A DNA stretch of 49,373 nt from Alloprevotella sp. oral taxon 473 str. F0040. Lineage in GTDB: Bacteria > Bacteroidota > Bacteroidia > Bacteroidales > Bacteroidaceae. How positions within the stretch are numbered: position 1 is the stretch's first letter; the number at the start of each line of letters is the position of its first letter. The notes under the pieces are model-generated. The model ran no database searches and was not told the origin of the DNA. It worked only from the letters and a program-made list of their open reading frames with translations. Positions 30,071-46,727 of this stretch are shown here, piece by piece. The stretch lies in contig NZ_KB290717.1 of assembly GCF_000318095.2 (NCBI RefSeq), positions 624,048 through 673,420 of the forward strand. Direction: 5' to 3'. The translations under genes were made by a program, and so were the position numbers.

Positions 30071-30090
30071 TGAAGGTTGGTGTAGCAACT
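30071..30090. other. Left junction (attL) of mobile element
   Basis: Chromosomal GTGAAGGTTG (30071-30080) meets element sequence GTGTAGCAAC (30081-30090). GTTGGTGTA occurs across the junction (30077-30085) and again at 30119-30127 inside the element. The crossover could lie a base or two either way. Confidence 0.75.
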
Positions 30091-30214
30091 AATCAACGAA
30101 AATGAAGAAATATCGAAGTTGGTGTAAACTGACTGATAATGAGCAGGAAACGAAATAATTTGCATAGAAGTGCTCTTTTCAAAAAGAGTTATAATATGCA
30201 GATTTAGGCAGAAG

Positions 30215-30279
30215 TTCAGTTACCAGAGCGTTACCCGATTTTGCCATAGGTAACGATGGAGTAATATTCGGTAACTGAA
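30215..30279. repeat. Nested GTTACC/GGTAAC inverted repeats, left end
   Basis: Outer arms TTCAGTTACC (30215-30224) and GGTAACTGAA (30270-30279); inner arms CGTTACC (30229-30235) and GGTAACG (30249-30255). The same hexamer recurs near the right end, so this is a plausible set of integrase or excisionase arm sites. Confidence 0.55.
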
Positions 30280-30335
30280 TTATTTTTACTCGTGTGGCTG
30301 TTGCTGCGGTCGGCAGTTTTCTGCATAAGAGAGAA

Positions 30336-30377
30336 ACGCTTTGAAATTGGTAATTTTGCCACAAAACATCAAAGCGT
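30336..30377 (+). promoter_or_regulatory. Integrase promoter inside an inverted repeat
   Basis: A -7 box TAATTTTG (30351-30358) is bracketed by ACGCTTTG (30336-30343) and CAAAGCGT (30370-30377), the latter touching the integrase ATG. A similar bracketed promoter lies at the right end (46623-46677). The dyad could be an operator that lets a regulator shut the integrase off. Confidence 0.5.
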
Positions 30378-31607
30378 ATGAAAACAGAAAAAATGAAGGT
30401 GTTGCTCTACCTCAAAAAGAGCGGTCTGGACAAGTCGGGCAAGGCTCCGATTATGGGACGGATAACCATTGGGCGTTCCATCGCACAGTTCAGTTGCAAG
30501 CTCTCCTGCAATCCTGACTTGTGGAATCCCCGTGAGAGCAGAATGGACGGAAAAAGTCGTGAGGCGGTGGAAGTGAATGGCAGGTTGGAGAATTTGCTGC
30601 TGTCCATTCAGTCAGCCTATCAGTCTTTGCTTGCAAGAGGTTGCCCATTTGACGCAACCGATGTGAAGAAACAGTTTCAAGGAAGTGTGCAGACACGGTG
30701 CATGCTCATCGAAAGACTTGATATGCTCATAAAGGAGAAAGAAAGTCATGTCGGTGTAGACATCAGAAAAGAGTCAATGGCAAACTATCACTCCACGAGA
30801 ATCCACTTGCAGGAGTTCATCCAAAAGAAGTATAAGGTTTCTGACTTAGCCCTCTCACAACTGACAGAGAACTTCATCCATGAGTTTCAGCAGTACTTCT
30901 TAGGGGAGTGTGGATTTCAGGAAAGCTCATTCTACAATGTCGCCACCCATTTGAAGACGGTATGCAGGCTGGCTTACCGTGAGGGATTGGCAGACATCCT
31001 GCTTTTCGACAAAGTCAAAATCAGCAAGGGTAACAAGAAACTCCCCAAAGCACTTGACAGAGGGGCATTTGAGAAGTTAAAGACTCTCCACTTGGAGGAC
31101 TTGGAGGAGGAAATGGAAACGGCAAGGGATATTTTCCTCTTTGCCTGTTATACGGGTGCTGCATATTGTGATTTGATGGAACTGGACAAGTCCCATCTTG
31201 TGCGTGATGACGAGGGTAGCCTTTGGCTGAAGTTCAACCGCCAAAAAACAGGTGTGCCTTGTCGTGTCAAACTGCTGCCTGAAGCCATATGGCTGATGGA
31301 GAAGCTCCACAGCGATGAAAGGGAAACATTGCTCCCTTTCATGGGATATGCCACTTACCAATCTTATTTGAAAGCCCTGCGGCTTCGTGCTGGCATCTCG
31401 TTTCCTTTTACCACACATACAGCAAGGCACACATTTGCCACGCTCATCACGCTTGAACAGGGTGTGCCTATTGAAACGGTAAGCAAGATGCTGGGGCATT
31501 CCAACGTGAGCATGACCGAGCGTTATGCAAAGGTAACACCGCGGAAACTCTTTGAGGAATTTGACCGTTTCCTTTCTTTCACTGAAGATATGCAGTTGGC
31601 TATCTGA
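30378..31607 (+). CDS. Tyrosine recombinase (integrase 1)
   Basis: A 409-aa phage-type integrase with an Arm-DNA-binding domain (about 1-100, VLLYLKKSGLDKSGKAPIMGRITIG), a SAM-like core-binding domain (110-215) and a catalytic domain. The catalytic box II HTARHTFATL and the nucleophile in MTERYAKV are present. Box I reads CYTGAAYCDL, with Ala where most tyrosine recombinases have Arg; loss of this Arg is known from Bacteroides integrases such as IntDOT. It starts directly after an inverted repeat and is followed 41 bp later by a second recombinase. It presumably drives integration and excision at the ends defined at 30081 and 46798. Confidence 0.92.
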   Translation: MKTEKMKVLLYLKKSGLDKSGKAPIMGRITIGRSIAQFSCKLSCNPDLWNPRESRMDGKSREAVEVNGRLENLLLSIQSAYQSLLARGCPFDATDVKKQFQGSVQTRCMLIERLDMLIKEKESHVGVDIRKESMANYHSTRIHLQEFIQKKYKVSDLALSQLTENFIHEFQQYFLGECGFQESSFYNVATHLKTVCRLAYREGLADILLFDKVKISKGNKKLPKALDRGAFEKLKTLHLEDLEEEMETARDIFLFACYTGAAYCDLMELDKSHLVRDDEGSLWLKFNRQKTGVPCRVKLLPEAIWLMEKLHSDERETLLPFMGYATYQSYLKALRLRAGISFPFTTHTARHTFATLITLEQGVPIETVSKMLGHSNVSMTERYAKVTPRKLFEEFDRFLSFTEDMQLAI

Positions 31608-31648
31608 CCATTTCTTTCATTCAACATTGTTTTATCGTTAAATAAAAC

Positions 31649-32995
31649 ATGAACAATTCAATCAAGACCATTATGAGAAGTACATTCAAGATACTGTTCT
31701 ATATTAACAGACAGAAAACAAAGGCAGACTGCAATACCGCCATTCTCTGCCGTATCACCATCGACGGAAAGAACACAGCCATTACCACAGGCGAAGAGTG
31801 CCATCCTGTCGAGTGGAACACCAAGCAGGGTTTGACAACCAACAAGAAGACAAACCAAAGAATCAAAGAATTCAGGGATTTGGTGGAAAAGACCTATCGG
31901 GACATTCTTGTAAAGGATGGAGTGGTAAGTGTGGAGCTTATCAAGAACCGCTTACAGGGTATTGCCACCAATCCGACCACGCTCCTTGCCATGAGCTGGG
32001 CGGAACTCCAAACAGTCAAGGAAAGTGTTGGCAGATCAAGGGCAGAGGGAACTTACCTGAATTTGTTTTATTCTGACAGAAATCTCCGTGAATTTGTAGA
32101 AAACAAAGGAGTACAAGACATATCCATCGGAACAATTACAGAGGACTTGTTCGAGGAATACCGTTTCTTTCTCAAAAAGCGTGGACTGAAAGCATCCACC
32201 ATCAACAGCAACCTCTGCTGGCTGAGCCGACTGATGTTCCGTGCGGTCAGCAAGAGGATTATCCGCTGCAATCCGTTTGAGAATACCAAGTATGAGAAAG
32301 AGGAAAAGAAGATACGCTTTCTGCAAAAGAGCGATGTGATGAAACTTATGGCAATGAAGATGAACGACAAGGAAGCGGAGCTGGCAAGACTGATGTTTGT
32401 CTTTTCATGCTTCACAGGCTTGGCTATCTCAGACATGGAGAATTTAGAAAACAAGCATATCCAAACGACAGCGGACGAACAGATGTATATAAGAAAGGAA
32501 CGTCAGAAGACCAAGGTTGAGTTCATCGTGCCGTTACATCCCATAGCGGAAGCCATCATCAGTCATTGCCAGAAAGAGCAGGAAAGAAGTGAAGAATATC
32601 TGCTGGTGAAAGAAAAAGGGGATCACCTTGTCTTTCACCGTGATTGCAGCCGCAGTGTCATGGATGCCAAACTGAGTATTGTGGGAAAGGCTTGCGGTAT
32701 CTGCCAAAGACTTTCCTTCCACATGGCAAGACATACATTCGGCACGATGAGCCTAAGCGCAGGTATTCCCATTGAGAGCATAGCCAAGATGATGGGGCAT
32801 GCCTCCATATCAAGCACTCAAGTTTATGCGCAGGTGACGGACAAAAAGATATCAGAGGATATGGACAGACTCATCGCCAAACATCAGGAAAAGAACAAAG
32901 AGGATGATAAGGTAACGGTAAAGGAAACTATTACCATAGGTACAATGGCTATTGCCAACACAGGCAGAAACAAAAGCATGGAGGAAACGGCATGA
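31649..32995 (+). CDS. Tyrosine recombinase (integrase 2)
   Basis: A 448-aa second integrase of the same class: N-terminal arm-binding region (STFKILFYINRQKTKADC), core-binding domain, and catalytic domain with HMARHTFGTM and the tyrosine in STQVYAQV. Box I is CFTGLAISDM, again without Arg. A later ATG at 31673 (MRSTFKILFYIN) is an equally good start and matches the usual beginning of this family. The sequence is clearly diverged from integrase 1, so the pair is not a recent duplication; the two may act together or have separate integration and excision roles. The stop overlaps the next gene by 4 bp (ATGA). Confidence 0.9.
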   Translation: MNNSIKTIMRSTFKILFYINRQKTKADCNTAILCRITIDGKNTAITTGEECHPVEWNTKQGLTTNKKTNQRIKEFRDLVEKTYRDILVKDGVVSVELIKNRLQGIATNPTTLLAMSWAELQTVKESVGRSRAEGTYLNLFYSDRNLREFVENKGVQDISIGTITEDLFEEYRFFLKKRGLKASTINSNLCWLSRLMFRAVSKRIIRCNPFENTKYEKEEKKIRFLQKSDVMKLMAMKMNDKEAELARLMFVFSCFTGLAISDMENLENKHIQTTADEQMYIRKERQKTKVEFIVPLHPIAEAIISHCQKEQERSEEYLLVKEKGDHLVFHRDCSRSVMDAKLSIVGKACGICQRLSFHMARHTFGTMSLSAGIPIESIAKMMGHASISSTQVYAQVTDKKISEDMDRLIAKHQEKNKEDDKVTVKETITIGTMAIANTGRNKSMEETA

Positions 32996-33417
32996 ATACG
33001 GAAGATGGAATAAAGACCAAGGCTGCAATCCGTCTGGACACGGGGCGCAGCTACTTCGAGTGGGGAAATGGTATGCAGGTTATCCGCAGGGGAAAAGGCG
33101 AAGTAGCCATGACCGAGGGCGAGCTTGCAAGGTTCTTCGGAGTTACATGGAGAAAAGTCAATGGCAGACTTCGGACGATAACCGAAGAATCCGTCCTGCA
33201 TCCAGAAGAAAGGGACGCAGACGAAAGGAAAATAGTCACGGATAAGGAGGTAAGGGGCTACGCACCGCTCTACCCATTACCTACAATTATCGCCCTTTCC
33301 TTCTTGCTTGACAGCGTAGAAGCCCACCTGTTCAGAAAGCATGTGTGCAGTGAGTTGATGCATCCAAGGAGTTCTGTCATTCCTATCATCATATATGACA
33401 GGGGTGTCAATAGCTGA
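32992..33417 (+). CDS. Small HTH-like protein coupled to integrase 2
   Basis: A 141-aa protein without a family I can name. Residues 40-65 (MTEGELARFFGVTWRKVNGRLRTI) have the spacing of a helix-turn-helix. The C-terminal part contains a hydrophobic helix (YPLPTIIALSFLLDSVEAHLF) that looks amphipathic rather than membrane-spanning. Its ATG overlaps the stop of integrase 2, so it is translationally coupled and may regulate or assist recombination. It is the last plus-strand gene before the cargo. Confidence 0.7.
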   Translation: MNTEDGIKTKAAIRLDTGRSYFEWGNGMQVIRRGKGEVAMTEGELARFFGVTWRKVNGRLRTITEESVLHPEERDADERKIVTDKEVRGYAPLYPLPTIIALSFLLDSVEAHLFRKHVCSELMHPRSSVIPIIIYDRGVNS

Positions 33418-33700
33418 ATATGTACCAATCCTTTTTCTTTCACTGTTATCTTACTACATTACTACAAAACAAGGTAACACAGTGACAGAGAAGGTATTAC
33501 GTTGTAGTTGGTAGATGACTATATGTGCAACTACGGTATGACTACATACTACCAATCCATGAACGGAAAGGATATGTTTTTTAGCCGTGGAATGCGGTCA
33601 GAGAGGATTGTGAACTTTCGGATATGGCTATGTAGATAAGATTGACAAATACAAGAAGGTTTTTCTTAGCTGTCGTGCATATTCCTTGAAGGCAACAATT
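33418..33700. other. Junction between recombinase module and cargo operon
   Basis: 283 bp without a gene. It is rich in GTAGT/ACTAC motifs, including TTGGTAG (33508-33514) opposed to CTACCAA (33549-33555); a similar cluster with TTGGTAGT occurs at 43026-43140 on the far side of the cargo and helicase gene. Convergent transcription ends here. Confidence 0.5.
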
Positions 33701-34339
33701 CTATTGCCACAAATAGTCGTAATTATGGTTACTAAACATCTCATTTTCCCCTCGCTCAAAATATATTGTCTTAATAATGAAACCTTCCCTTGCTTTGGAC
33801 ATCGAATACGGAAAGAGAGATTGGTCAACAAATCCTATAGAGTTTACATATCTGCCCAGCGGAGTGTCTATGTATTTGTATTCCTGATGAAGCGACAACT
33901 TTTCTCTGCTGATTTGCCTGATGGTATCAATTATATGGAAACTTCTGTCATCAACCAAAAATGCTGAAACAGGCTTGCCTATTTTCCATTCAAAATCATA
34001 GACAAGTAAGGGTTTGGGAATGAACTTGTCGTAATAAAAAATTTGTTTTCCCTGCTCGTGGAGGTAGAAAACGGCATTTTTCTTGCCATTTACATAAACT
34101 TTCCTGTATTCGACTCCCTTAATGATGGTGTCTTCCCTGACAGTATATAGATAAATCTGATAGAAAAAAGGACGGAAAGGGTCTGTCACTATTTCTTTCC
34201 ATGAAGTGCCTTCAGGGTAATAGATGTACTCATATTCTTCCCTGTCGTTTCCACACCCGGAGAGACAAAGAAATTCCACGAGTCCCAAAAGCAATTCCAA
34301 AATAAGCAACATGACAGAGAGTCCCTTAGTCCTTATCAT
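33701..34339 (-). CDS. Hypothetical lipoprotein, last gene of cargo operon
   Basis: A 212-aa protein with a lipoprotein signal: hydrophobic stretch at 9-26 and lipobox LSGC with Cys29, followed by an acidic tail (GNDREEYEY). The body is rich in beta strands and aromatic residues; the pattern of repeated short strands (TIIKGVEYRKVYVNGKK, then LVYDFEWKIGKPV) resembles secreted proteins that are common in Prevotella and relatives, but no named family is clear. It begins 9 bp after metK, so it is part of the cargo operon. Being surface- or periplasm-anchored, it might hold, receive or protect against the secreted product of the first gene; this is inference only. Confidence 0.75.
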   Translation of the reverse strand: MIRTKGLSVMLLILELLLGLVEFLCLSGCGNDREEYEYIYYPEGTSWKEIVTDPFRPFFYQIYLYTVREDTIIKGVEYRKVYVNGKKNAVFYLHEQGKQIFYYDKFIPKPLLVYDFEWKIGKPVSAFLVDDRSFHIIDTIRQISREKLSLHQEYKYIDTPLGRYVNSIGFVDQSLFPYSMSKAREGFIIKTIYFERGENEMFSNHNYDYLWQ

Positions 34340-34348
34340 CGTCCCTAA

Positions 34349-35608
34349 TTATTTTATGCGGAAACTATCTTTTATCGTATCCACCATGTCTAATTTCTCC
34401 CATGTAAACAATTCCACCTGAATGTTTTTTGTTCCATGATACCTGCTTGTAAATGTTTTGTTCACAACTTCATTTTTCCGTCCCATGTGACCATAGGCTG
34501 CCGTTTCCGTGTACATCGGCTGGTTTAGTTTAAGCTGCCTTTCAATGGCTTTAGGGCGCAGGTCGAACATTTCAAAAATCTTCTGTGCAATTTCTCCGTC
34601 CGACATTCCGACATTATTGTGTCCATATGTATCAACCGATACGCTGACAGGAGCAGCCACACCGATGGCATAAGCCAGCTGCACAAGAATTTCGTCCGCA
34701 ACCCCTGCTGCTACCATATTTTTGGCAATATATCGTGCCATATAAGCAGCACTGCGATCTACCTTGCTTGGATCCTTTCCAGAGAAAGCACCTCCGCCAT
34801 GTGCTCCTCGTCCCCCATATGTATCCACAATTATTTTTCGCCCAGTAAGCCCCGTATCCCCATGCGGACCTCCTATAACAAATTTTCCTGTTGGATTTAC
34901 AAGATACTTTATGTTACTGTTGAACAGCTTTTGTATTTTGGAATCACATTGGGAAATGACACGAGGCATAAGAATGTTAATCACATCGTTCTTAATCTTG
35001 TCCAGCATCTTCTTGTCGTCCACGTCAAAATCGTCATGCTGAGTACTTACCACTATTGTGTCAATGCGCAGAGGTTTTTTGTTCTCGGTGTATTCTATTG
35101 TTACCTGACTTTTTGCATCGGGGCGTAAATAAGTCATTTCCTTGCCCTCCTTGCGTATGTCGGAGAGTGTTCTCATAATGAGATGTGCCAAATCAAGAGA
35201 AACTGGCATATAATTTTCGGTTTCATTGGTAGCATAGCCGAACATCATACCTTGGTCACCTGCACCCTGTTCGTCCGTATCTTTATTGGAAACGCCTCTG
35301 TTTATATCATCGCTCTGCTCGTGAATAGCCGTGAGGATACCGCATGAATCACCGTCAAACTGATATTCAGCTTTTGTGTAACCAGCCTTGTTTATTGTTT
35401 CGCGGGCAACATTCTGAAGGTCGATGTATGTACTGGAACGCACTTCACCCATAATGACCACCTGCCCCGTCGTTACGAATGTTTCTATTGCACAGTGAGC
35501 ATTTCTGTCATAAGCAAGGAAATAGTCAAGCAACGCATCTGAAATCTGGTCTGAAATCTTATCGGGATGTCCTTCTGAAACGGACTCCGATGTAAATAAA
35601 TGTCTCAT
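34349..35608 (-). CDS. metK: S-adenosylmethionine synthetase on mobile element
   Basis: A complete 419-aa methionine adenosyltransferase, making SAM from methionine and ATP. The signature segments are all present: [16 protein letters not shown] at the N-terminus (ATP/metal site), [12 protein letters not shown] near 115-127, and [19 protein letters not shown] near 270-290, with the catalytic Lys and Asp residues in place. The length is normal for Bacteroidota MetK. It lies 4 bp after the oxidoreductase gene and two genes after a radical SAM enzyme, so the likely role is extra SAM for that enzyme. MetK is normally a single essential housekeeping gene, and a copy inside mobile cargo is unusual. 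It might alternatively confer resistance to an inhibitor of the host enzyme. Confidence 0.95.
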
Positions 35609-35612
35609 CTTT

Positions 35613-36674
35613 TTATCTTATATTGTTTAATTCTTCTAATATAGCGTATGTGGAACGCAGCGTCATGAAATCCGTATATTCTTCTGCTGTACCATTTTTC
35701 ATTTCCGTCATTTCCACGAACATCTTTATCTCGTTAAAATATCCCTGTGTGTAAATCTGGTTGTTTGCCAAAATGGGATTGAAGTTGTTTCTTGATAAAA
35801 GACACTCGTTGGATAATTTGGTGGGGAGCACTTTTTCGATTGGTACTCCACCTATGGTACATACTGATGGCACAAATGACAGTCGCTCCATCTGGTCTAT
35901 TTCATACGTTCCGTCCTGCGTGTTCACTCTGACATTTTCACTAGCATCTTTCCAAGAATAAAGTGTGGATAATTCCAAAGTACCAATAATATTGTCATGT
36001 TCCAGCATCAGCAGGTAGGTCACACCACCTTTTTTTGTACTTTTGACTTTATGCATCGCCAGTATCTTAGCCCCTCCAAAAAGAAAAACGACCAAGTCGA
36101 TAGGGTGTATAAACAAATCGTATATCTCATTGCCTTCGGGGTACAATCCCGTTTGGTAACGTAGGCTGTAACTATTTAATTCCCTGCCTTTTATTTCCTT
36201 TCTCAATCTGGAAACAAGCGGAGAATGTCTTTTTTGCATTCCGACAACTGTGGTATTAAATCCAAATAACCTTTGCTTGTCAATAAGGCTGTTTAGTTCC
36301 TTTAAACACATACAGGGAGGTTTTTCTATAAAAAGAGATTTCCCCGATTTTATAACTTCTGATGCAATTTCAAAATGTGACGCAGGTGTGGCTGACACAA
36401 ACACTCCTGCGACTGTCTCGTCATTGAGAATATCCTTTATAGATGTTGTCCCTATTATGCCCTTGAATTTTTTCCCTATCAGTTCTGCCTTTTTCGTGGA
36501 AGAACAGCACACATACTTCACGTTGACTTGTAGAAATTGGATGACGGGGAAAAGGTTGTGGATGGTGTGGTTTCCAAAACCAATTATAGCATAGTTCTTC
36601 TCATAACAGTCGGAGAGATATTTATTATCCCTTCTGCGCTTGTAAAGTCTGATGATTTTCTGAATGTCTGTCAT
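35613..36674 (-). CDS. Gfo/Idh/MocA-family oxidoreductase
   Basis: A 353-aa NAD(P)-dependent dehydrogenase-like protein. An N-terminal Rossmann fold begins about residue 28 ([10 protein letters not shown], a variant of GxGxxG), with [11 protein letters not shown] and the family marker EKPPCM near 118-123, where the lysine of EKP is catalytic in the family. The C-terminal alpha/beta domain contains histidines ([14 protein letters not shown]) of the kind that help catalysis. Family members oxidise or epimerise sugars and related alcohols. It is packed between radical SAM (5 bp) and metK (4 bp), which suggests it acts on the same pathway, for example on a sugar or a modified peptide; the substrate cannot be read from the sequence. 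Confidence 0.88.
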
Positions 36675-36679
36675 TTAGG

Positions 36680-37741
36680 CTATATTAATCCTTTGAAATA
36701 TTTGCGGTACGTGCATTTTTCATCAGCAGTCCACTGATATTTCCCGTAAAACGCTTCGATAAGTTTTTTAGGGAAAAACCTCTCGGCTGTACGGAGAAGT
36801 ATTATGTCAAATTTACGATGGTAGTTAATCCAGCATTTGTTGCAGTCATGGGAATACTCACATTGAATCTTAGCAGTCCTTTGTGAATTGAAGATTTCGT
36901 CAAGAGTATTGTTGTGAACATTGCCGAGAATCACATCCAGATTTTGGCACAGGGGAACATTCCCATTGGAATGGATTACCAGTTCATTGTATATACTGTG
37001 GCATCTTAGGCGCAGATTTCCTTTTTTCCATTCATCGTACAGAGCCACAAAGTCAAAATTTTCCTGTGTTTTATGGATAGATTGCGGAATCTTTTTTATG
37101 TAGTCATTTCCGACCTCCATTAGGTCCTCGGTGGTATCAAAGAAATCCATCGTATTGTAAATGCCTATTCTGACATCAATGTTATAGTGTTTGGCAAGCT
37201 GAATAACATAGTCCATGTCCTCAAACGTGTTCCATGGAGTAAGGCAGAACATGAACGATATGGGAACAAAGTCCTTACAGCTTTCCACCACCTGAATGAC
37301 CTTGTCATATCCGTCACGCCCTCTTAGAGTTTTATATGTTTCCTTGTTCCCATCTAAGGAAATATACAGATGTTTGGGCTTGTATTTCTTTACAGCTTCG
37401 ATAACTTTAGAGGGTGCAAGGCAATTTGATAGCAGGGTGTAGTTTGTATGGTTGTTGTGAAACCAGTTCAGTATTGCATCAGCTTCAGGATGTAAAATAA
37501 ATTCCCCCCCCTCCAGACCGACGGTTGTCCGTTTTGTTACGCACTTGCTCGACATTATCCGAATGATGTCCGATAATGACAAATGCTCTATTGGCTTTTT
37601 CCAAATAGAGCAATGTTTACACCGTGACTGACAAAGTGATGTGGAATAAATCATCAAGGATGATAAAGTCTTATCTGTAGGTACTGTTATGTTTTTTACA
37701 AATGCACCTCCAGTTACGAGATAGTCTAAAACGTTATACAT
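36680..37741 (-). CDS. Radical SAM enzyme with SPASM-like C-terminus
   Basis: A 353-aa radical SAM protein. The cluster-binding CxxxCxxC is C37-QSR-C41-KH-C44, followed by the GGE motif (GLEGGE, 75-80) that binds SAM. In the C-terminal third, Cys247, Cys265, Cys294, Cys300 and Cys303 (the last two in CNKC) are spaced like the auxiliary-cluster ligands of SPASM/twitch enzymes, which modify ribosomal peptides or proteins, or act on sugars. No short precursor peptide is evident next to it; the only upstream operon partner is the secreted 799-aa protein, across a 59-bp gap with a perfect palindrome. The operon also supplies metK. I infer a protein- or carbohydrate-modifying role; a target has not been shown. 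Confidence 0.88.
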   Translation of the reverse strand: MYNVLDYLVTGGAFVKNITVPTDKTLSSLMIYSTSLCQSRCKHCSIWKKPIEHLSLSDIIRIMSSKCVTKRTTVGLEGGEFILHPEADAILNWFHNNHTNYTLLSNCLAPSKVIEAVKKYKPKHLYISLDGNKETYKTLRGRDGYDKVIQVVESCKDFVPISFMFCLTPWNTFEDMDYVIQLAKHYNIDVRIGIYNTMDFFDTTEDLMEVGNDYIKKIPQSIHKTQENFDFVALYDEWKKGNLRLRCHSIYNELVIHSNGNVPLCQNLDVILGNVHNNTLDEIFNSQRTAKIQCEYSHDCNKCWINYHRKFDIILLRTAERFFPKKLIEAFYGKYQWTADEKCTYRKYFKGLI

Positions 37742-37758
37742 TGATTATGTTTATAGTA

Positions 37759-37794
37759 TTCTCCGCATACCAAGTTAACTTGGTATGCGGAGAA
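37759..37794. repeat. 36-bp perfect palindrome inside cargo operon
   Basis: TTCTCCGCATACCAAGTT (37759-37776) is followed immediately by its exact reverse complement (37777-37794). It fills most of the 59-bp gap between the secreted-protein gene and the radical SAM gene. As RNA it would be a 16-bp hairpin with a 4-nt loop and no T run after it on the minus strand: a partial terminator, an mRNA-end stabiliser, or a DNA operator. Confidence 0.85.
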
Positions 37795-37800
37795 AAAGAA

Positions 37801-40200
37801 TTATTCAACGATTATCTTTTGCTGTTTTGTCTTGTTATTTTCACTATAACTTATAACGTATGTACCGCTATGAGGCAATGTCGCCTTGTATGAATAAGAA
37901 CCCTTGTACTTATTCTGTTTATAAGAGGTAACAACATGCCCATAAACATCTGTTATAGTCATCGAGAATTGACAATCATTCTCAAGGGTGTAGCTTATGC
38001 TAAGAGTGTTCCCTGAGACTTCTACACCAAAGCTGCTGCCATTTTTTGTAGGATTGGCTGAATCCTCTTGAACCACAGGAGTTAAATCCATACCGCTGAG
38101 CAATCCTTTCACATATAGCATCGTGTTTGCATAAGGAGAAACCAGCTCGCTTTCCGTAATGACCACAGGAGCGGTCAGCACAGGCTTAGCCCCAAATTTT
38201 GTCTCTTTTTTGATTGTTGGAATTTGTGGTACCAAATCTTCCAACAGTTTAGTCATAAAGATGTTGCCTTCTCCCAGTTCCTTATATACCAAGAATTGAC
38301 TGGACGGAACAGATGCGCAATAAGATTTAAGCTGACGATAACTGTCATATTCTCCTAATTGTTCAAAACTGCTATAAGGAGATTGGTTTATATCCTTATC
38401 CCAAAGTGCAACTAAACTCTTGAACTTGCTTTCTGTTCCAGCAGGCAGCAAGGCAATTCTGCTTTCAATGAGACCTTGCTCCAAATCGGTAAACGAAACC
38501 TGTGCTACTTTTGCATCGGCACTTAACTGTGGTTTTGTTCCCAACGAAGTGTCTTTACGGTAATATTCTACGATTTCCCCATAGGAATTACCTCTCACTC
38601 CGTTTCTAGGATGGAAAGTTCGTGCCAAAGCACCAGGCTTACTTTCCCAGTCATATCCATGCAAATTGCCATCAGCCCCATCCCGAACAGAAGCATGTGT
38701 ATATTCTCTTTTTCCATTCCGCACGATAGCCCATAAAGCAACTGTCCCGTTTTCAGCATTTGCACCAACCCTTGTAAGTCCTCTTGACGCATAGAATTTG
38801 TCAAAAGCCCTCAACGGGTCAGGGTCGTAGAAGTTAGAATGCGTCGAAGGAGGCCATTCCCAATAGGATGTTATTCCTCCAGACCAGCTTATACAGTTAT
38901 AGGTTCGAGACTCGGGAGCGGACATAATCGCATCGTCTTCCTTCAAGTAAGGAAAAGAGCCAGCATATGTAACGTTATTTACGCTGCTTTTTTTACATTT
39001 TATGTAAACATTGCAAAGAACTTCTGGCTGATAAGAGCTGTACTGCGACAACAAAACGGCATTGCCTGCTACTGAGTACTTTTTGTTAATTCGCGCCCAT
39101 CTTCCCCAATCAAAGTCTCCATTCCCTTGATAATCATCATTGTAAGCGATAATTCCAGATGGATTTCCGTAAGATTCTATCCAAACCATCGGATCACCTC
39201 CCTTGGAGCATACAAAAGTGTTATATACTTGATCTGTTCCTTGATTACATACTATTCCCAAACTAAACAAAGGGACATTGCTGTAATAATTTTCTCCGTT
39301 GATATTGACATTAGCAAGTCCGCTTGTGGCATTGAGCCATGAACGTACTCTGACGTAGTAAAGTCCCGTCTCAGGAATGTTGACATTCAAGGAAGCAAGG
39401 CATTGATTGTTGGAATGTGCATTCCATGTGTATCGCTCAGGATTGTTTGCACTGAACAACTCAAGAACATGGTCATAGTTGTCAATTCCGTTTGTCGCTA
39501 TAAATATTTGCTGTCCTCTCTGGAAAGAAACTGTCTTGAAAAAAGAGTACTTTATTTTGCAATTTCTAATGTATTCAAAATCATACAAAGGAGAGTCGTA
39601 GGAAACACTTCTTGCTTTTGCAAACAAAGGTATAGCCAATGTGTCTCTGCCACAGAAATTCAAAGACGGTTCTGCATTACTGAGTGCATTCTCATGAGAT
39701 AAGGTCTTAAGTTCTACCTTATAGTCATTGTAATTTTGAGACGAAATGGTAGAATTTCCCAAATCCTTAGAAAGTCTGACAAATTCAACCTCTGGAACGT
39801 CAGGAGCAGTCCCAACAATAGAGATGGTGTTCTTGCCTTTTCTCAGGAACACCTTTGAAGACTTCTTCAAGCCTATCGCCTGCCAGTCGTTTGACACAGG
39901 GGCTAAGACATCATCTTGCAACTCGTTGTTTACCATTACTTTGTAAACAGATAGTGTGCCATCTGCTTTCTTCGTCCCTAACACCCAGAAGTTGGCATAA
40001 TGAAGCCCCGAAACTGGAGCTTCGACTTCAAAGGTGGTGAAAGTCTGAGCCTCTGTAATTGATTTTGTACACTTGAGAATCTTCACATCGCCACCTAAGC
40101 TTGGATTCTTCTCGTAATAACTAATGCTCTCCACACTTTGTGAGAAAGCAGCAACTGTTGTTGCAAATAAAATTAACAATGTAGTAATACCTTTTTTCAT
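37801..40200 (-). CDS. Secreted Cys/His papain-like protein with T9SS tail
   Basis: A 799-aa exported protein, first gene of the cargo operon. A signal peptide covers residues 1-20 (AAFSQ). Residues 20-400 are beta-rich, probably adhesin- or carbohydrate-binding-like modules. Residues 425-550 carry TYNCISWSGG (Cys436), YTHASVR (His502), DWESKPGALARTFHP (Trp518, His530) and SYGEIVEYY; this order matches the DUF7689-type domain, which looks like an NlpC/P60- or papain-like Cys/His fold, though activity is not established. The last 75 residues (TLSISYTLEND through GTYVISYSENNKTKQQKIIVE in parts) have the form of a type A T9SS sorting domain, so the protein should be exported across the outer membrane and released or anchored. 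It has its own consensus promoter and is followed by a palindrome and four tightly packed genes. Confidence 0.85.
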   Translation of the reverse strand: MKKGITTLLILFATTVAAFSQSVESISYYEKNPSLGGDVKILKCTKSITEAQTFTTFEVEAPVSGLHYANFWVLGTKKADGTLSVYKVMVNNELQDDVLAPVSNDWQAIGLKKSSKVFLRKGKNTISIVGTAPDVPEVEFVRLSKDLGNSTISSQNYNDYKVELKTLSHENALSNAEPSLNFCGRDTLAIPLFAKARSVSYDSPLYDFEYIRNCKIKYSFFKTVSFQRGQQIFIATNGIDNYDHVLELFSANNPERYTWNAHSNNQCLASLNVNIPETGLYYVRVRSWLNATSGLANVNINGENYYSNVPLFSLGIVCNQGTDQVYNTFVCSKGGDPMVWIESYGNPSGIIAYNDDYQGNGDFDWGRWARINKKYSVAGNAVLLSQYSSYQPEVLCNVYIKCKKSSVNNVTYAGSFPYLKEDDAIMSAPESRTYNCISWSGGITSYWEWPPSTHSNFYDPDPLRAFDKFYASRGLTRVGANAENGTVALWAIVRNGKREYTHASVRDGADGNLHGYDWESKPGALARTFHPRNGVRGNSYGEIVEYYRKDTSLGTKPQLSADAKVAQVSFTDLEQGLIESRIALLPAGTESKFKSLVALWDKDINQSPYSSFEQLGEYDSYRQLKSYCASVPSSQFLVYKELGEGNIFMTKLLEDLVPQIPTIKKETKFGAKPVLTAPVVITESELVSPYANTMLYVKGLLSGMDLTPVVQEDSANPTKNGSSFGVEVSGNTLSISYTLENDCQFSMTITDVYGHVVTSYKQNKYKGSYSYKATLPHSGTYVISYSENNKTKQQKIIVE

Positions 40201-40240
40201 AAGTTCTTTATTAAAAGGGTTTATACTAAATTAGACGGTG

Positions 40241-40271
40241 TAAATTTAGGGAATTTGTGTGACATTTCCAA
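40241..40271 (-). promoter_or_regulatory. Promoter of cargo operon
   Basis: Minus strand: TTG (40269-40271), 20 bases, TAAATTTA (40241-40248; the last base deviates from TAnnTTTG), about 40 bases before the ATG of the secreted protein. The spacing equals that of the chromosomal promoters, so the operon should be read by the host housekeeping polymerase. The rest of 40201-40484 holds only the terminator at 40384-40417. Confidence 0.7.
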
Positions 40272-40383
40272 GTTTTTAGTATGATTTCTGAGAAAAATAC
40301 TGCGTTTTAGGTACATATAAACAGAATTACGAAGAAAGGAGTTTGTTAATGCGTTTGATGGCACTGTGTTTCATTCCTATAAA

Positions 40384-40417
40384 AAAAGAAAAGGTCAAGG
40401 AGAAATACCTCCTGACC
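40384..40417 (-). terminator. Terminator of HTH gene pair
   Basis: On the minus strand a stem (GGTCAGGAGG with CTCCTTGACC, one bulge; 40393-40417) is followed by TTTTCTTTTTTT. It separates the excisionase-type genes from the cargo promoter. Confidence 0.75.
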
Positions 40418-40484
40418 CAAACATTATGTTACAAAATATTTCTATAATTAAGGCTGTATCTTTCCCTTAAATATTTCATAACAT

Positions 40485-40775
40485 CTACGCAATGGAATTT
40501 TCTTCTAATAACTTCTCCAAATCCGAAGCCTTGTATAGTATTTTCCCTGCGAATTGCGTGTAGGGGATAACTTTCCTGTCCCGATAGTCCTGCAAGGTAC
40601 GAGGGCTGATATACAGCCGTTCGCATACTTCCTTGCCTGTCAGGAAATGCTCACCGCCAAACAGCGGTTTGTGTGTCTGTGCCACTTCCTTTATCCGTCT
40701 GTTCATTCCTTCAAGTGCGGACAGCACCACCTGCATATCATCCGCTTCCATATTCAAGTCCTTTACTGATTCCAT
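40485..40775 (-). CDS. Excisionase-type HTH protein 1
   Basis: A 96-aa DNA-binding protein of the helix-turn-helix 17 / excisionase class. After an acidic N-terminal helix it shows FLTGKEVCERLYISPRTLQDYRDRKVIPYTQFAGKILYKASDLEKLL, a winged-helix of the MerR/Xis kind. Such small proteins in Bacteroides elements act as excisionases or regulators of mobilization genes. It is the second of a pair with the gene at 40788-41090 (12-bp gap), probably one transcript ending at the terminator near 40393. Confidence 0.85.
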   Translation of the reverse strand: MESVKDLNMEADDMQVVLSALEGMNRRIKEVAQTHKPLFGGEHFLTGKEVCERLYISPRTLQDYRDRKVIPYTQFAGKILYKASDLEKLLEENSIA

Positions 40776-40787
40776 AATACCCTTGTC

Positions 40788-41090
40788 TTATTTGTTATTC
40801 TTTAATCTGTCTGTTTTTGTCTTCTCCGATTTAGTCTGCAACAGCCGCTCCACGTCCTCACGCCTGTAATAGCACTTATGCCCTATTTGCGTAAACGGCA
40901 GCACACCTGTATCCCGATAGTGCTGCAATGTACGCTTGCTGATATTAAGCAACCTGCATACATCGCCGTTGTGCAGCCAATCGGTGTGTCTGCTCTGTTC
41001 TCCGAATGCCTTGTGGCAGGTCTCGGCAAGACTGAGTATCTCGTTTCTCAACCTTGCCCAATTTGAATCCGTAATGATAAAATATCCCAT
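40788..41090 (-). CDS. Excisionase-type HTH protein 2
   Basis: A 100-aa paralogue of the adjacent HTH protein, with WLHNGDVCRLLNISKRTLQHYRDTGVLPFTQIG and then KCYYRREDVERLLQ. I start it at 41090 (MGYFIITDSNW) rather than 41141, because the added residues (mostly Asn/Lys) do not look conserved and the promoter lies just upstream. The pair is transcribed away from the VirE/VapE-type gene, the usual arrangement in Bacteroides mobilizable elements, where such proteins control excision. Confidence 0.85.
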   Translation of the reverse strand: MGYFIITDSNWARLRNEILSLAETCHKAFGEQSRHTDWLHNGDVCRLLNISKRTLQHYRDTGVLPFTQIGHKCYYRREDVERLLQTKSEKTKTDRLKNNK

Positions 41091-41179
41091 AGTTTTATTG
41101 TTATTTTGTTTGTAATTCTGTCTTATTGGTATTGACAACACCTTTGTCTGTTCTACGTTTCACTGCACGTTTATGCCTG

Positions 41180-41209
41180 CAAAGGTATGATGAGTTTGTC
41201 ACACTTCAA
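41180..41209 (-). promoter_or_regulatory. Promoter of HTH gene pair
   Basis: Minus strand: TTG (41207-41209), 19 bases, TACCTTTG (41180-41187), about 90 bases upstream of the first HTH gene. Confidence 0.65.
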
Positions 41210-41683
41210 AGCAGCAGGGAACAGCAGGGAAATATCGGGAACTTCAAGGAAAAACTAACGCATTTTATCGGCAGCCGTTTGCGCATTCTTTCCCTGTTTT
41301 CTTCTTTCGCCGTCTGTTTGGCGCAAAGATAGGGCGGTGCATGTCCTATTCTATCATACTTCTTTTAAGTGGCACCTTGTAGCACTCTTGGTGTGGACAA
41401 AAGCTACCCTATTTCTGTGCTGATTCTTATTGTTTGCAATATCGGTGCAGAATACCGCAAACGTGTGCAAAAGGGTACACTTCTACCTCTATCTTTCCTT
41501 GCTATTTTATCCCCTGTTTTGATTTAATTCGGGCTTAAATCAGTTATTTCTTTTCCTGTCTCTTCAAAAATCCGTGCGAACTTTATTGCGAATGAACGCA
41601 ACATTATGCAAGCACTCTCCGAATGCTTGGAACTTTCCAGTTCTCTTCATAACTTCACTCTCGGAAACCAAACCAAGCATATA
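41210..41683. other. Divergent gene-free region before VirE/VapE-type gene
   Basis: About 470 bp without a supported gene. It contains an imperfect 31-bp dyad with outer arms GTTTGC (41432-41437) and GCAAAC (41457-41462), a possible operator, and a second minus-strand TATCTTTG box (41324-41331) lacking a -33 partner. Confidence 0.45.
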
Positions 41684-43039
41684 ATGAAAAGGAATGCAGA
41701 TAAAGGCAATTCAGTGGACGAAAATAATACGCCCAAGCAAAGGAAGACTTCCTCCAAAAATGGTGAGATAGAAACCTATCTCTCCTCTTATTATGAGTTT
41801 AGGTACAACACGGTGTTAGGTAGAACCGAATACCGAAGTAAGGAAGATGCTCACTTCTCAAAAGTGGGTCGCTATGAAAGCAACACGCTCCGCAGGGAAC
41901 TTGACAACGATGTGGGGATTATCACATCTTCCGACAACCTCTATTCCATTATAGAGAGCAGCTTCTCTCCACGTGTCAATCCCATACAGGAGTATTTCAA
42001 TGGATTGCCTTTGGTGGATATTGGTAATAGCAGAGGTAATTATAGTGGCAATAGCGATAGTTGTAGTCATGGCAGTAGTGGTAATGGTAATAATGAACAC
42101 AATAACCATTGTGATATTTCTTCCCTTTCACTGAAAGCCATTCCCGAATTGGCAAGTTGCGTAGTTGTGCGCAACTCTGACAAGTGGCTGCCATACCTTA
42201 CCAAATGGCTCGTGGCAGTGGTCGCCAACGCCATGGACGACCGTGAATGCCGTAACCATACCTGTCTTGTACTGACAGGCGAGCAGGGCAAGTTCAAGAC
42301 AACTTTCCTTGACTTGCTCTGCCCACCTGCCCTGCATGGTTACAGCTACACGGGAAAGATATATCCGCAAGAGAAGGACACGCTTACCTATATAGGGCAA
42401 AACCTCATCGTAAACATTGACGACCAGCTCAAAGCCCTCAACAAGCGTGACGAGAACGAACTGAAAAACCTCATCACCTGTCCGATGGTCAAGTACCGTA
42501 TGCCTTACGACAAGTATGTGGAGGAACACCCACACTTGGCGAGTTTCGTTGCATCGGTAAATGGTAACGATTTCCTTACCGACCCCACAGGCAGCAGACG
42601 GTTTCTGCCCTTTGAAGTGCTTTCCATAGATATTGAGAGAGCAAAGGCTGTTTCTATGGATAATGTCTATGCGGAAGCGAAAGCCTTGCTGAGCATAGGT
42701 TTCCGCTATTGGTTTGACGATGAAGAGATAACGGAACTATACAGGGAGAGTGAGGATTTCCAAGTACAGACGGCAGAAATGGAACTACTGTTGCGCTGTT
42801 TTGAGAAACCTACGGAGGATAGTCCCAACTGTACCTATATGACTACCACAGAGATAATCACCTACTTGGGACTTTACACGCATCATCCCTTGTCCTTAAA
42901 GCACATGGGCGAAGCCCTGAAAAGGGCAGGCTTTGAGAAAGTGAGCAAGAGGCGAGAGGGTGGCAGTCCCATCTATGTATATAAGGTAAGGAAGATATTG
43001 CCTTGTCCTTTATTAGGCAGTTGCAACTATCAGATGTAG
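41684..43039 (+). CDS. VirE/VapE-type ATPase (replicative helicase-like)
   Basis: About 451 aa from the ATG at 41684 (MKRNADKGNS); an in-frame ATG at 41606 would add 26 residues of poor character. The N-terminal part (IETYLSSYYEFRYNTVLGRTEYRSK) is typical of this Bacteroidales family. The ATPase domain has a P-loop LTGEQGKFKTTFLD, a Walker B-like NLIVNIDDQL, and sensor region SVNGNDFLTDPTGSRRFLPFEV, as in VapE/VirE and D5-like superfamily 3 helicases. Between them is an Asn/Ser/Gly linker encoded by triplet-repetitive DNA. The gene precedes iteron-like repeats and a primase, so a role in copying the excised circle is likely. Confidence 0.87.
   Translation: MKRNADKGNSVDENNTPKQRKTSSKNGEIETYLSSYYEFRYNTVLGRTEYRSKEDAHFSKVGRYESNTLRRELDNDVGIITSSDNLYSIIESSFSPRVNPIQEYFNGLPLVDIGNSRGNYSGNSDSCSHGSSGNGNNEHNNHCDISSLSLKAIPELASCVVVRNSDKWLPYLTKWLVAVVANAMDDRECRNHTCLVLTGEQGKFKTTFLDLLCPPALHGYSYTGKIYPQEKDTLTYIGQNLIVNIDDQLKALNKRDENELKNLITCPMVKYRMPYDKYVEEHPHLASFVASVNGNDFLTDPTGSRRFLPFEVLSIDIERAKAVSMDNVYAEAKALLSIGFRYWFDDEEITELYRESEDFQVQTAEMELLLRCFEKPTEDSPNCTYMTTTEIITYLGLYTHHPLSLKHMGEALKRAGFEKVSKRREGGSPIYVYKVRKILPCPLLGSCNYQM
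42023..42109 (+). repeat. Triplet-repetitive linker within VirE/VapE-type gene
   Basis: About 29 codons made largely of GGTAAT, AGTGGT and AATAGY triplets, encoding a Gly/Asn/Ser/His stretch between the N-terminal domain and the ATPase. It looks like slippage-expanded DNA that keeps the frame. Confidence 0.7.
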
Positions 43040-43275
43040 TAGGCACATGTAGTAGGTTGGTAGTATAACTTGGGACTAAAAAATAATATTGGAAATCAAC
43101 TACTTATGTCAAAATAGTATGTAGTAAGAAGAAAGATGAAAAAGTTTGGAGGGGAAAAACTTCTGAAAAAAGATTTTCTTTCAATAAGCATTCACCTACC
43201 ATTCAAATATCATTCAAATACACCATTGTCATTCAAACACAAATTATTCAATCCATTCAATTAAAACATATCACA
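43040..43275. promoter_or_regulatory. Iteron-like ATTCAA repeats, candidate replication origin
   Basis: Upstream of the primase the core CATTCAMA recurs at 43189, 43200, 43211, 43230 and 43254, with a further ATTCAA at 43245, all in the same direction. The first three are 11 bp apart, one helical turn. Just before them, 43026-43140 is rich in GTAGT/ACTAC. Directly repeated sites in A+T-rich DNA between a helicase-like and a primase gene are what an iteron origin looks like. Confidence 0.5.
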
Positions 43276-44268
43276 ATGAAAGAAGAAGATTTATCACGCA
43301 TCAAGCAATACCCCATCGTGGAGTATCTTGAAAGTAAAGGCATCAAGCCTGTACGCAGAACATCAGTCTATGCGTTGTACCGCTCACCGCTGCGTGCAGA
43401 AACACATCCGAGTTTCAAAGTGGACACAGAGAAGAACCTTTGGATAGACTATGCCGAATGCAGGGGCGGAAGTATCATCGACCTCTGTATGCGTTTGGAG
43501 GGCTGCACGCTATCGGAAGCCATCCACCACTTGGGGCAGAACGCTCCCGATAATACAGTATATAGTTCTCACAAAGACTTCTCACAAAACAATCTCCAAC
43601 CAACGATGGCTGCAAACGAGACAAGGAAACTGATAAGTATATCAGACACCCTACCGCCACATTTGCAGGAGTATCTTACAAAGGTACGCTGCATTGATTT
43701 GGAAAAGGCAAAGCCTTTCCTTAAATGTATCAGCTATGAGGTAAGGGGCAGGCGCTATCAATCCATCGGCTTTGCCAATCAATCAGGAGGGCATGAACTT
43801 CGGGACAATGGCACGTTCAAGGGAACGATAGCTCCGAAGGACATTACTCCTATATTCACCGACAAGATAATAAACCAAATGCAGCCAACTTGTGTGTTCG
43901 AGGGATTTATGGATTTTCTTTCTTTTCTTTCAATGAAAGAAGAAGTAACAAGTGCCTGCCTTGTGCTAAACTCCGTGAGCAATACCGCCAAAGCAATTCG
44001 GTATATGAATGCGCAGGGAATATCTTCCATTCGTACCTTCCTTGATAATGACGATGCTGGGCGGAGGGCTGTTCAAGATTTCATAAAGGCAGGCTTCCAT
44101 GTTGAGGACATGAACATACATTACAAAGACTTCAAGGATCTCAACGATTTTCATGTCAGTCGTGTCCGTGAGCGACAGAATCATAAAGAGCAGATACTGG
44201 CACACATGTCGGTTACAGAACAAAATCAAAGCAATAAATCAAAACAAGTCAAACATAAAATGAGATAG
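43276..44268 (+). CDS. Toprim primase with CHC2-like N-terminus
   Basis: A 330-aa mobile-element primase. The N-terminal part is like the DnaG zinc-binding region (SPLRAETHPSFKVDTEKNLW, then DYAECRGGSIIDL), although few of the usual cysteines remain. The toprim fold follows: the glutamate in VFEGFMDFLS (about 210-219) and the DxD-type acidic pair in FLDNDDAGRRA (about 255-265), which bind Mg for primer synthesis. It lies after iteron-like repeats and 4 bp before a DUF3408 gene. With the upstream VirE/VapE-type ATPase it would form a minimal replication set for the excised or transferred strand. Confidence 0.88.
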   Translation: MKEEDLSRIKQYPIVEYLESKGIKPVRRTSVYALYRSPLRAETHPSFKVDTEKNLWIDYAECRGGSIIDLCMRLEGCTLSEAIHHLGQNAPDNTVYSSHKDFSQNNLQPTMAANETRKLISISDTLPPHLQEYLTKVRCIDLEKAKPFLKCISYEVRGRRYQSIGFANQSGGHELRDNGTFKGTIAPKDITPIFTDKIINQMQPTCVFEGFMDFLSFLSMKEEVTSACLVLNSVSNTAKAIRYMNAQGISSIRTFLDNDDAGRRAVQDFIKAGFHVEDMNIHYKDFKDLNDFHVSRVRERQNHKEQILAHMSVTEQNQSNKSKQVKHKMR

Positions 44269-44272
44269 AGAA

Positions 44273-44743
44273 ATGAAAAAGAAAACAATGATGAATGACA
44301 AAGACCTTTCATGGTTCTTGGAATGCCAAGATGATAAAATGGACAATGAGGTAATCTCACAGACGGAAGCACAATCCGTTCCTGTGGAGGAAACAACAAC
44401 AAACGCAGAAATGAAGAAGGACCGTATTACTCAAGGAGAAGCGGACATCGCTTCAGAGCAATCCGAGCATACACTGAACACGGAGAACGTAACCGTTCAA
44501 AGACGCGTCAGTGCCAAGATGAGGAAAAAGACACTCGAATCCTACAAGCAAGCCTATCTTGTGCCGACCAAGTTGAGTGACCGAAAGGCGGTCTATCTGA
44601 GCAGGGAGACACAGGAACGTGCCGACTTCATCGTGCGCAGGCTGGGTGACAGGGGCAGCAACCTCTCAAGTTTCGTGGAGAATATCGTGCGCCTGCATCT
44701 GAAGGAATACGGTGAGGACATAGAAAAATGGAGAAGGCTGTGA
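44273..44743 (+). CDS. DUF3408 mobilization-associated protein
   Basis: A 156-aa protein typical of Bacteroides conjugative and mobilizable elements. The N-terminal half is acidic and probably disordered; the C-terminal half (KAVYLSRETQERADFIVRRLGDRGSNLSSFVENIVRLHLKEY in parts) has the strand-helix-helix form of a ribbon-helix-helix DNA-binding domain. Family members are encoded next to mob or tra genes and probably belong to the relaxosome or regulate it. It sits 4 bp after the primase gene and just before the oriT-like region. Confidence 0.85.
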   Translation: MKKKTMMNDKDLSWFLECQDDKMDNEVISQTEAQSVPVEETTTNAEMKKDRITQGEADIASEQSEHTLNTENVTVQRRVSAKMRKKTLESYKQAYLVPTKLSDRKAVYLSRETQERADFIVRRLGDRGSNLSSFVENIVRLHLKEYGEDIEKWRRL

Positions 44744-45102
44744 GTCACAGAAACAAGGTCGAGGGTTTTAAGGAAAGGGACAAGCATTCCATTCAAACCC
44801 CTCAACCTTTTCAGAGAACATGCCAACGGACACTTACTGAACATACTGAACGGTGGGAATGCCACGAATACAGTTATGCATGGAATGCACGGCATTCGCT
44901 TTCAAGCAACAAAACGCTTTATGCGTAAACGTTTCGTTAGCTGACACCAGCAAGACGTCAGTTTGTACCCACAAACTGCGCTTGCTCCCCTTGTCCTACT
45001 GTCGGGGAGATAAGACCGTAATCACTCCGTTCTCATCGGTCAGCGTTCAGGAATTAAGCAACAACGAATCATCTACAATGATTAACTTTCAAGGAAACTT
45101 AT
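44744..45102. other. Candidate oriT region
   Basis: 359 bp without a supported gene, directly before mobA-mobB. It contains a strong interrupted hairpin: AGCAAG (44949-44954) pairs with CTTGCT (44981-44986), and within it CAGTTTGT (44959-44966) pairs with ACAAACTG (44971-44978) around ACCC. CCCC (44987-44990) and GGGG follow around TTGTCCTACTGTC, a non-repeated stretch that could hold the nick site. Confidence 0.55.
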
Positions 45103-45528
45103 ATGAACAGATATAAAGGAAAAGCTGCCCGATGGCAGCAACAGGATAAAGAAGAACAGCGGATGAACAAAACGGAGTTCATCAAGGTAAGATGTACCAG
45201 TGAAGAGAAGAAACGTATCAAATCAAGGGCGGAAAGCACGGGACGGAAATTCTCCGATTATTGTCGGGAAATACTCCTTAACGGAGAAGTAACAGCCGTT
45301 CCCAAGATGACAGACAATGAGAGGGAAGCCATTGCCATTCTCCAACATACAGGAAGGTTCTATGGGCAGATTTCCAATCTCATCAAGCTCAAGGACGAGG
45401 ATTGGCTACATATCACCAAGAACCTTTCGCTATGTGCCAAAGAGGCATTTAAGCGGTTTTACGACCCGCATTTTCGGGTGGATGATGAAATATATAAGGT
45501 CTTAAATCTAACAAGAAATGATAGGTAA
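45103..45528 (+). CDS. mobA: Relaxosome accessory protein MobA (MobC-like)
   Basis: A 141-aa protein. FIKVRCTSEEKKRIKSRAES and then GRKFSDYCREILL form the ribbon-helix-helix of the MobC-like relaxosome family; the C-terminal part (HTGRFYGQISNLIKL) is also characteristic. In Bacteroides elements this protein binds oriT and helps the relaxase to nick. An internal ATG at 45163 (MNKTEFIKV) is an alternative start. The stop overlaps the relaxase gene by 11 bp, so the two are coupled. Confidence 0.87.
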   Translation: MNRYKGKAARWQQQDKEEQRMNKTEFIKVRCTSEEKKRIKSRAESTGRKFSDYCREILLNGEVTAVPKMTDNEREAIAILQHTGRFYGQISNLIKLKDEDWLHITKNLSLCAKEAFKRFYDPHFRVDDEIYKVLNLTRNDR

Positions 45529-46579: not shown

Positions 46580-46622
46580 ACATAGCATACAAAAAGTGCA
46601 TAATAAAGAATATCTCATCAAA

Positions 46623-46677: not shown

Positions 46678-46727
46678 CTTTGTTAGGCAGAAAACAGCGA
46701 AGCCAAGTAGTTCGCTCGTTTCCAAAT

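Follow-up and report, generated by a model that had tools for sequence, protein, structure and literature searches.

A mobile radical SAM and Gfo/Idh enzyme pair with an adjoining SAM synthetase gene in Alloprevotella

Five cargo genes on a mobilizable element

We analysed a stretch of 49,373 nt from Alloprevotella sp. oral taxon 473 str. F0040 (contig NZ_KB290717.1), called the window below, whose positions serve as coordinates. It harbours an integrative element that carries, as cargo, five genes on the − strand: in reading order, those of a secreted protein of 799 aa, a radical S-adenosylmethionine (SAM) enzyme, an oxidoreductase of the Gfo/Idh/MocA family, a SAM synthetase (MetK) and a lipoprotein (Table 1). 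The list of open reading frames (ORFs) and the profile scores agreed with an initial annotation, made from the letters of the window, on the genes, their coordinates, order, spacing and family names. The last four genes, described there as 4 to 9 bp apart, are separated by 5, 4 and 9 bp. The lipoprotein has an LSGC lipobox, read by eye; it matched no family above cut-off in Pfam/NCBIfam-type profile scans, and its comparison with the lipoprotein of another locus (L025) gave an E value of 0.032, on which no relation is claimed.

The five genes had been taken for a single operon behind one promoter. The promoter-like site is indeed present, and the window has 8 matches to its pattern, TTG-N20-TANNTTTR, where shuffled sequence has 1.35 on average. 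The operon did not hold up in that form: the secreted-protein and radical SAM genes are 59 bp apart, and this gap contains a perfect 36-bp palindrome (−27.8 kcal/mol and a z score of −9.65 for the 62-nt stretch that includes it). The palindrome would form a hairpin acting as an attenuator, a terminator or an RNA stabiliser, three roles that are not distinguishable here because no T-run follows positions 37759-37794. With a hairpin in the gap ahead of the enzyme genes, a single five-gene transcript is not established. The full palindrome was found in 8 of 230 loci, corresponding to four places: the window genome, Segatella buccae, Hallella colorans and oral taxon 376. Its half-site had 17 exact matches in viral contigs, which a rough estimate led us to attribute to chance. 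An Rfam scan of positions 30000-47000 yielded nothing above gathering scores.

The annotation's view of the cargo as mobile was confirmed. The five genes are flanked by two tyrosine recombinase genes and by a block of helix-turn-helix (HTH), VapE, primase and mobilization genes, so that recombinase and relaxase genes, as expected of a mobilizable integrative element, are both present. By blastn, a 16.7-kb block is 99.2% identical to a block of S. buccae, and the limits of this identity mark the ends of the element. Such a copy in another genus points to recent movement of the element between genera, from which we infer its transfer. The cargo alone (33591-40209) is 99.9% identical in H. colorans. 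We conclude that the cargo is real and mobile, and that its core is conserved.

Its two recombinases, HTH proteins, VapE, primase and NikA/MobA-type mobilization genes liken the element to other Bacteroidota mobilizable elements. It differs from them in its cargo, a metabolic pair plus metK: related elements carry another version (regulator, radical SAM, Gfo/Idh), oriented opposite to the recombinases (L009, L021, L020, L022 and the incomplete locus L036). Inverted arms, 90% complementary, lie at 29750-29790 and 46799-46839; since the right arm begins exactly at the right end of the element, the latter may lie within or next to an inverted repeat of the host.

Table 1. Features of the cargo and of the element that carries it (window positions)
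Feature	Position	Strand	Basis
799-aa T9SS-tailed DUF7689 protein	37801..40200	-	domain profiles, relatives, neighbourhood
Radical SAM enzyme, 353 aa, twitch/SPASM-type C-terminal domain	36680..37741	-	profiles, alignment, fold comparison
Gfo/Idh/MocA oxidoreductase, 353 aa, near-obligate radical SAM partner	35613..36674	-	PF01408, motifs, neighbourhood
MetK, S-adenosylmethionine synthetase, 419 aa	34349..35608	-	TIGR01034
212-aa lipoprotein, last gene of enzyme operon	33701..34339	-	lipobox by eye
Perfect 36-bp palindrome between secreted-protein gene and enzyme operon	37759..37794		repeat and folding analysis
Bacteroidota-type promoter-like site TTG-N20-TAAATTTA	40241..40271	-	pattern match
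Mobilizable element carrying the cargo	30085..46798		ends of blastn identity block with S. buccae copy, both sides
Tyrosine recombinase 1	30378..31607	+	Phage_integrase, Phage_int_SAM_5, Arm-DNA-bind_5
Tyrosine recombinase 2	31649..32995	+	Phage_integrase, Phage_int_SAM_5, Arm-DNA-bind_5
HTH_17 protein of element	40485..40775	-	profile
HTH_17/MerR-type protein of element	40788..41141	-	profile
VapE-like domain protein	41606..43039	+	profile
Toprim/primase-like protein	43276..44268	+	profile
NikA-like mobilization protein	45103..45528	+	profile
MobA/VirD2-type relaxase	45518..46579	+	profile

The radical SAM and Gfo/Idh genes are the conserved unit

The radical SAM enzyme matched the Radical_SAM profile at 49.5 bits (cut-off 29.5) and SPASM at 37.5 (cut-off 21.5), and it has both the core fold and the CxxxCxxC motif (C37/C41/C44) of the superfamily. 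The initial annotation had added five further cysteines to this motif. The motif stands, and beyond it all 25 aligned relatives share four cysteines, C247, C265, C300 and C303; C67 (24/25) and C166 (23/25) come next. This is the pattern predicted for one auxiliary cluster (twitch), rather than for the full SPASM set, and it corresponds to BtrN, whose auxiliary cluster is reported to have four-cysteine ligation (PMC9012708). The same paper puts twitch/SPASM radical SAM genes at about 165,000, very few of them studied by electron paramagnetic resonance spectroscopy. The oxidoreductase matched GFO_IDH_MocA (PF01408) at 42.9 bits (cut-off 24). Members of this family have an EKP motif in the N-terminal NAD-binding domain and a C-terminal region with the catalytic histidine; EKPPC and HPxD were retained in 20 of 20 aligned relatives, in keeping with the assignment.

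A first search of genome contigs returned 36 loci, 33 with a full-length radical SAM gene and 3 partial, and further samples added 17 loci from 200 relatives and 8 newly fetched from 393 genomes of the order. In all 58 full-length rows, representing 56 distinct loci (33/33, 17/17 and 8), a Gfo/Idh gene lay beside the radical SAM gene on the same strand; its match in L111 covered merely 226 aa. Seen from the other side, Gfo/Idh genes of this family were matched in 19 of the 200 genomes, 17 of which are the radical SAM genomes; the other two hold a contig-end fragment (G082) and a Gfo/Idh gene without radical SAM partner (G057, L252:6850-7923). The remaining cargo genes accompany the pair far less often among the 33 full-length loci: MetK in 4, one of them truncated, the secreted protein in 3 and the lipoprotein in 3. 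We conclude that the conserved unit is the radical SAM and Gfo/Idh pair, not the five-gene set. At the scale of the phylum, the radical SAM family was found at E 1e-25 in 3 of 395 genomes, the window's own included, and within the genomes sampled it is mainly a Bacteroidales trait. Scans of viral contigs detected no relative of the radical SAM enzyme nor of the secreted protein.

Twitch enzymes of the BtrN/BlsE type serve sugar and nucleoside antibiotics, a role that for BlsE is taken from its PDB title. They are 10-11% identical to the cargo enzyme, which differs from them in having a constant Gfo/Idh partner and no recognised antibiotic cluster around it; the two-electron oxidation of a small-molecule alcohol, which characterises BtrN-type dehydrogenases, is a putative activity here. 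A match to the viperin profile pVip (30.5 bits), limited to residues 32-152, would be explained by the shared radical SAM core. A literature search, judged by titles and abstract openings, found nothing on this radical SAM/Gfo-Idh pair. The two enzymes may well form a pathway that has not been described before.

The secreted protein matched DUF7689 at 84.5 bits (cut-off 22.6). Its C-terminal tail, characteristic of the type IX secretion system (T9SS), scored 32.3 against TIGR04183 (cut-off 23) and 22.3 against the Pfam T9SS tail, below the cut-off of 27. With a signal peptide recognised by eye, it is predicted to be exported as T9SS cargo, and this is plausible since the host encodes a GldL-type T9SS component above cut-off. 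Two residues had been singled out in its DUF7689-like region: among 6 aligned proteins of the family, H502 is present in all and C436 in 5. The AlphaFold2 model of the protein was poor (pLDDT 60.2, pTM 0.32).

The additional MetK and the usual regulator of the pair

The cargo MetK has the three MetK domains and a score of 508.8 bits against the metK equivalog TIGR01034 (cut-off 309.4), as a methionine adenosyltransferase should. It is a second metK in this genome, the host's own being 69% identical. In a tree, it forms one clade with a copy from Prevotella veroralis, nested in mostly Prevotella-genus metK (support 98/94) and apart from the host gene. The two copies are 96% identical, with dS 0.33, dN 0.022 and a dN/dS ratio of 0.065. 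The mobile MetK is therefore intact and under purifying selection, and the initial annotation was right to call it complete.

In P. veroralis (L037), a radical SAM remnant (99 residues matched) is followed by pieces that by eye resemble transposases, then by an unnamed ORF, ThiF, a different radical SAM gene, GTP cyclohydrolase II, MetK and the start of a lipoprotein with a broken frame. Here the former neighbours of MetK have decayed, yet MetK itself is whole and adjoins another radical SAM operon; no other evidence speaks as strongly for a role of the enzyme in radical SAM chemistry. In the same locus, the run from the unnamed ORF to MetK (L037:9874-14374) is on one strand, and the best NCBIfam hit of its radical SAM protein is PapB, below cut-off. 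This DNA looks conjugative by eye, and may encode a further natural-product pathway.

The annotation had also stated that a MetK on mobile DNA fits no named system. This was too strong, as metK was found on phage-type contigs (170 stretches), in 167 of 72,556 records of a plasmid collection, some of them chromosome-sized, and on phage-like DNA of Prevotellaceae. Among 301 genomes of the family, 292 had a metK match and 28 had two; when 27 of these 28 (all but G000) were re-examined, many turned out to have a single metK split in two. Six genomes (G412, G254, G120, G407, G097 and G367) do have an extra metK, whole or nearly so, outside this cargo. Tested genes in three of the extra-metK regions (L206-L213) match phage families, the clearest being an endolysin (L206) and a ParB-like protein (L208). 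The DNA at L206, L208 and L210-L213 appears phage-like, conjugative by eye (L211) or unassigned (L213), with an integrase-like ORF near the gene in L212. The cargo resembles these cases in that an additional SAM synthetase travels on mobile DNA; it differs in that the gene adjoins a radical SAM operon and falls within the Prevotella-type metK group. What looks unusual is an integrative element whose metK stands in one row with the genes of a radical SAM pathway.

Outside the mobile cargo, the pair usually lies behind a regulator gene, matched within 400 bp upstream in 26 of the 33 loci of the first search and in 8 of the 17 from the 200 relatives. The protein starts as an extracytoplasmic function (ECF) sigma factor (Sigma70_r2, r4), followed by a hydrophobic segment (by eye), and continues into an outer-membrane beta-barrel (OMP_b-brl_2). 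An example, besides 25 further loci of the first search, is L012:3355-5067, with its own promoter motif. The window genome's regulator (L076:8822-10528) is split into a 171-aa sigma part and a 395-aa remainder. The ECF sigma, hydrophobic segment, long linker and outer-membrane barrel present in most relatives recall the Dma/Das system of trans-envelope sigma regulation (PMC13088901); in contrast to that system, sigma and barrel here are usually one polypeptide (split into two ORFs in L076 and L021), placed ahead of a radical SAM pair. By analogy, the regulator is like a Das-Dma fusion and would have the layout of a trans-envelope sensor. Nothing on a fused sigma-Dma protein was found in the literature searched, as judged by titles and abstract openings.

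Of 41 rows in which the flank was long enough, 36 have the motif GCAGTCT(T/A)T, in most cases TGCAGTCTTT, and a second box of CTC/TCT type ahead of the regulator. Over 61 rows, partial and duplicate ones counted in, the radical SAM gene has the motif upstream in 34 of the 43 where a regulator was matched (by a sigma fragment alone in two, L090 and L114) and in 2 of the 18 where none was. Elsewhere it is rare (19 matches in 1.75 million strand-bases). Searching TGCAGTCTTT-N11-17-CTC in 6 genomes gave 14 matches, compared to 3 for the backward control. Sites upstream of the regulator or the radical SAM gene account for both matches in G291 and for two each in G000 and G041, and one G038 match precedes the radical SAM gene; the remaining matches look scattered, and a wider sigma regulon was not established. 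At the window cargo, neither the usual regulator nor the motif was found, hence no Dma/Das-type arrangement, which means that the mobile version is uncoupled from the usual switch.

All four genomes with an intact mobile cargo also have a second locus, of the regulator, radical SAM, Gfo/Idh type (mobile/second: window/L076; S. buccae, L003/L008; H. colorans, L004/L014; oral taxon 376, L005/L023). The radical SAM family was present in 54 of 249 genomes of S. buccae's genus (35 of 108 among the best genomes); at 0.32 each, four second copies out of four are expected about once in a hundred. We regard this association as a lead, the sample being small and shared ecology a possible explanation.

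Possible roles of the cargo

The reading we favour, at a little less than an even chance, takes radical SAM plus Gfo/Idh for a module of two enzymes, biosynthetic or modifying, which the mobilizable element holds outside its usual envelope-sensing control and has joined to its own SAM synthetase. It rests on the conservation of the pair as a unit, on the missing regulator and motif, and on MetK, an intact gene under selection that lies 4 bp behind the pair. The radical SAM enzyme, whose four conserved cysteines would bind an auxiliary cluster like that of the dehydrogenase BtrN, would abstract a hydrogen atom from a small polar substrate of the sugar, cyclitol or nucleoside kind; the paired redox step would fall to the Gfo/Idh enzyme, which depends on NAD(P). 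MetK would convert methionine and ATP into SAM, sustaining the radical SAM chemistry. Given that the usual regulator is laid out like a trans-envelope sensor, it is probably the cell envelope that the product would serve. As to the secreted protein, it would be an independent passenger or a separate effector. Extending this to the whole family, we suggest, at somewhat less than an even chance, a Bacteroidota pathway of two enzymes, undescribed so far and normally switched on by a single-polypeptide sigma/trans-envelope sensor, which mobile elements may have freed and supplied with a portable SAM-supply gene, transferable to other radical SAM operons. A near-obligate pair, a dedicated-looking regulator, a defined motif and a private SAM synthetase make a compact system that lends itself to a joint study of the substrate, the partner step and the supply of cofactor; if true, cofactor supply can travel as cargo with a pathway. 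The locus family also brings to light the fused sigma/outer-membrane-barrel regulator, whose local target is obvious.

Two points limit the case for a dedicated MetK: P. veroralis offers one example, derived and within the same lineage, and to find metK on mobile DNA is no rarity. MetK might be an accidental passenger caught by recombination, with no specific radical SAM link, as its low frequency beside the pair, its occurrence on phage contigs and plasmid records in other settings and its truncated copy in A. tannerae would have it. We find this rather unlikely, given the purifying selection, the 4 bp that separate MetK from Gfo/Idh, and its survival in P. veroralis beside another radical SAM gene. 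A dedicated SAM supply by the mobile MetK, as initially proposed, is likely, in the sense that we lean towards it over an accidental role. The other part of that proposal, in which the radical SAM enzyme modifies the secreted protein and the lipoprotein acts as immunity or receptor, has become highly improbable. In each of the four intact mobile copies (window, L003, L004 and L005) the two genes lie side by side on one strand, and the T9SS tail and GldL-type component suit a secreted target, but the three full-length loci where they adjoin are all near-identical, and a hairpin lies between them. Co-occurrence, the check put forward with the claim, did not unite them outside this one lineage: among the 200 relatives, the secreted protein was matched in 6 genomes and the radical SAM enzyme in 17, overlapping in the window's own genome only (the chance of at least one overlap is 0.42), so that five genomes (G018, G025, G102, G111 and G150) have the former without the latter. 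No enzyme of the pair was seen around three relatives of the secreted protein (L120, L121 and L122), two others (L118, L119) being at contig ends with context from one side only. Finally, A. tannerae has kept the pair without the 799-aa protein, with transposase-looking pieces on both sides. We therefore rejected the secreted protein as the radical SAM substrate, an unlikely role for what is probably an unrelated neighbour.

Maturation of a ribosomal peptide, with its precursor encoded elsewhere, is suggested by the similarity of the radical SAM enzyme to SkfB and SuiB in fold and profile, and by sactipeptide maturases among its NCBIfam matches. These matches are far below the curated maturase cut-offs (e.g. 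SbtM 54.7 of 350, SkfB 47 of 300), and no conserved precursor peptide was found near the pair in 31 loci among ORFs of 18 aa or more: of 33 small-ORF clusters present in at least 4 of the 31 loci, 29 lay wholly inside large ORFs and 4 straddled their edges, none being clear of them. Together with the constant Gfo/Idh partner and the single four-cysteine auxiliary set, this makes a peptide substrate improbable. Modification of an envelope lipid or glycan, for surface remodelling or self-recognition, with the mobile copy working with or against the chromosomal one, would agree with the second locus found in four genomes of four and with the domain order of the usual regulator, which matches that of the Dma trans-envelope regulators; two of these, Dma1 and Dma2, reportedly control vesiculation (PMC13088901). 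However, those are four genomes only, open to the ecological explanation given above, and among the pair's neighbours, read by eye without family scan, we recognised no pathway for lipids or glycans; we hold this possibility to be unlikely.

Two minor observations concern neighbouring DNA. Upstream of the cargo of the related element L009 (L009:4309-5965), two ORFs look by eye like an abortive-infection or toxin-antitoxin-like pair. In the window, positions 48500-49297 contain three direct repeats of 300 nt with a spacing of 249 nt, within an open ORF (47213 to the window end) for a secreted-looking protein with repeated domains.
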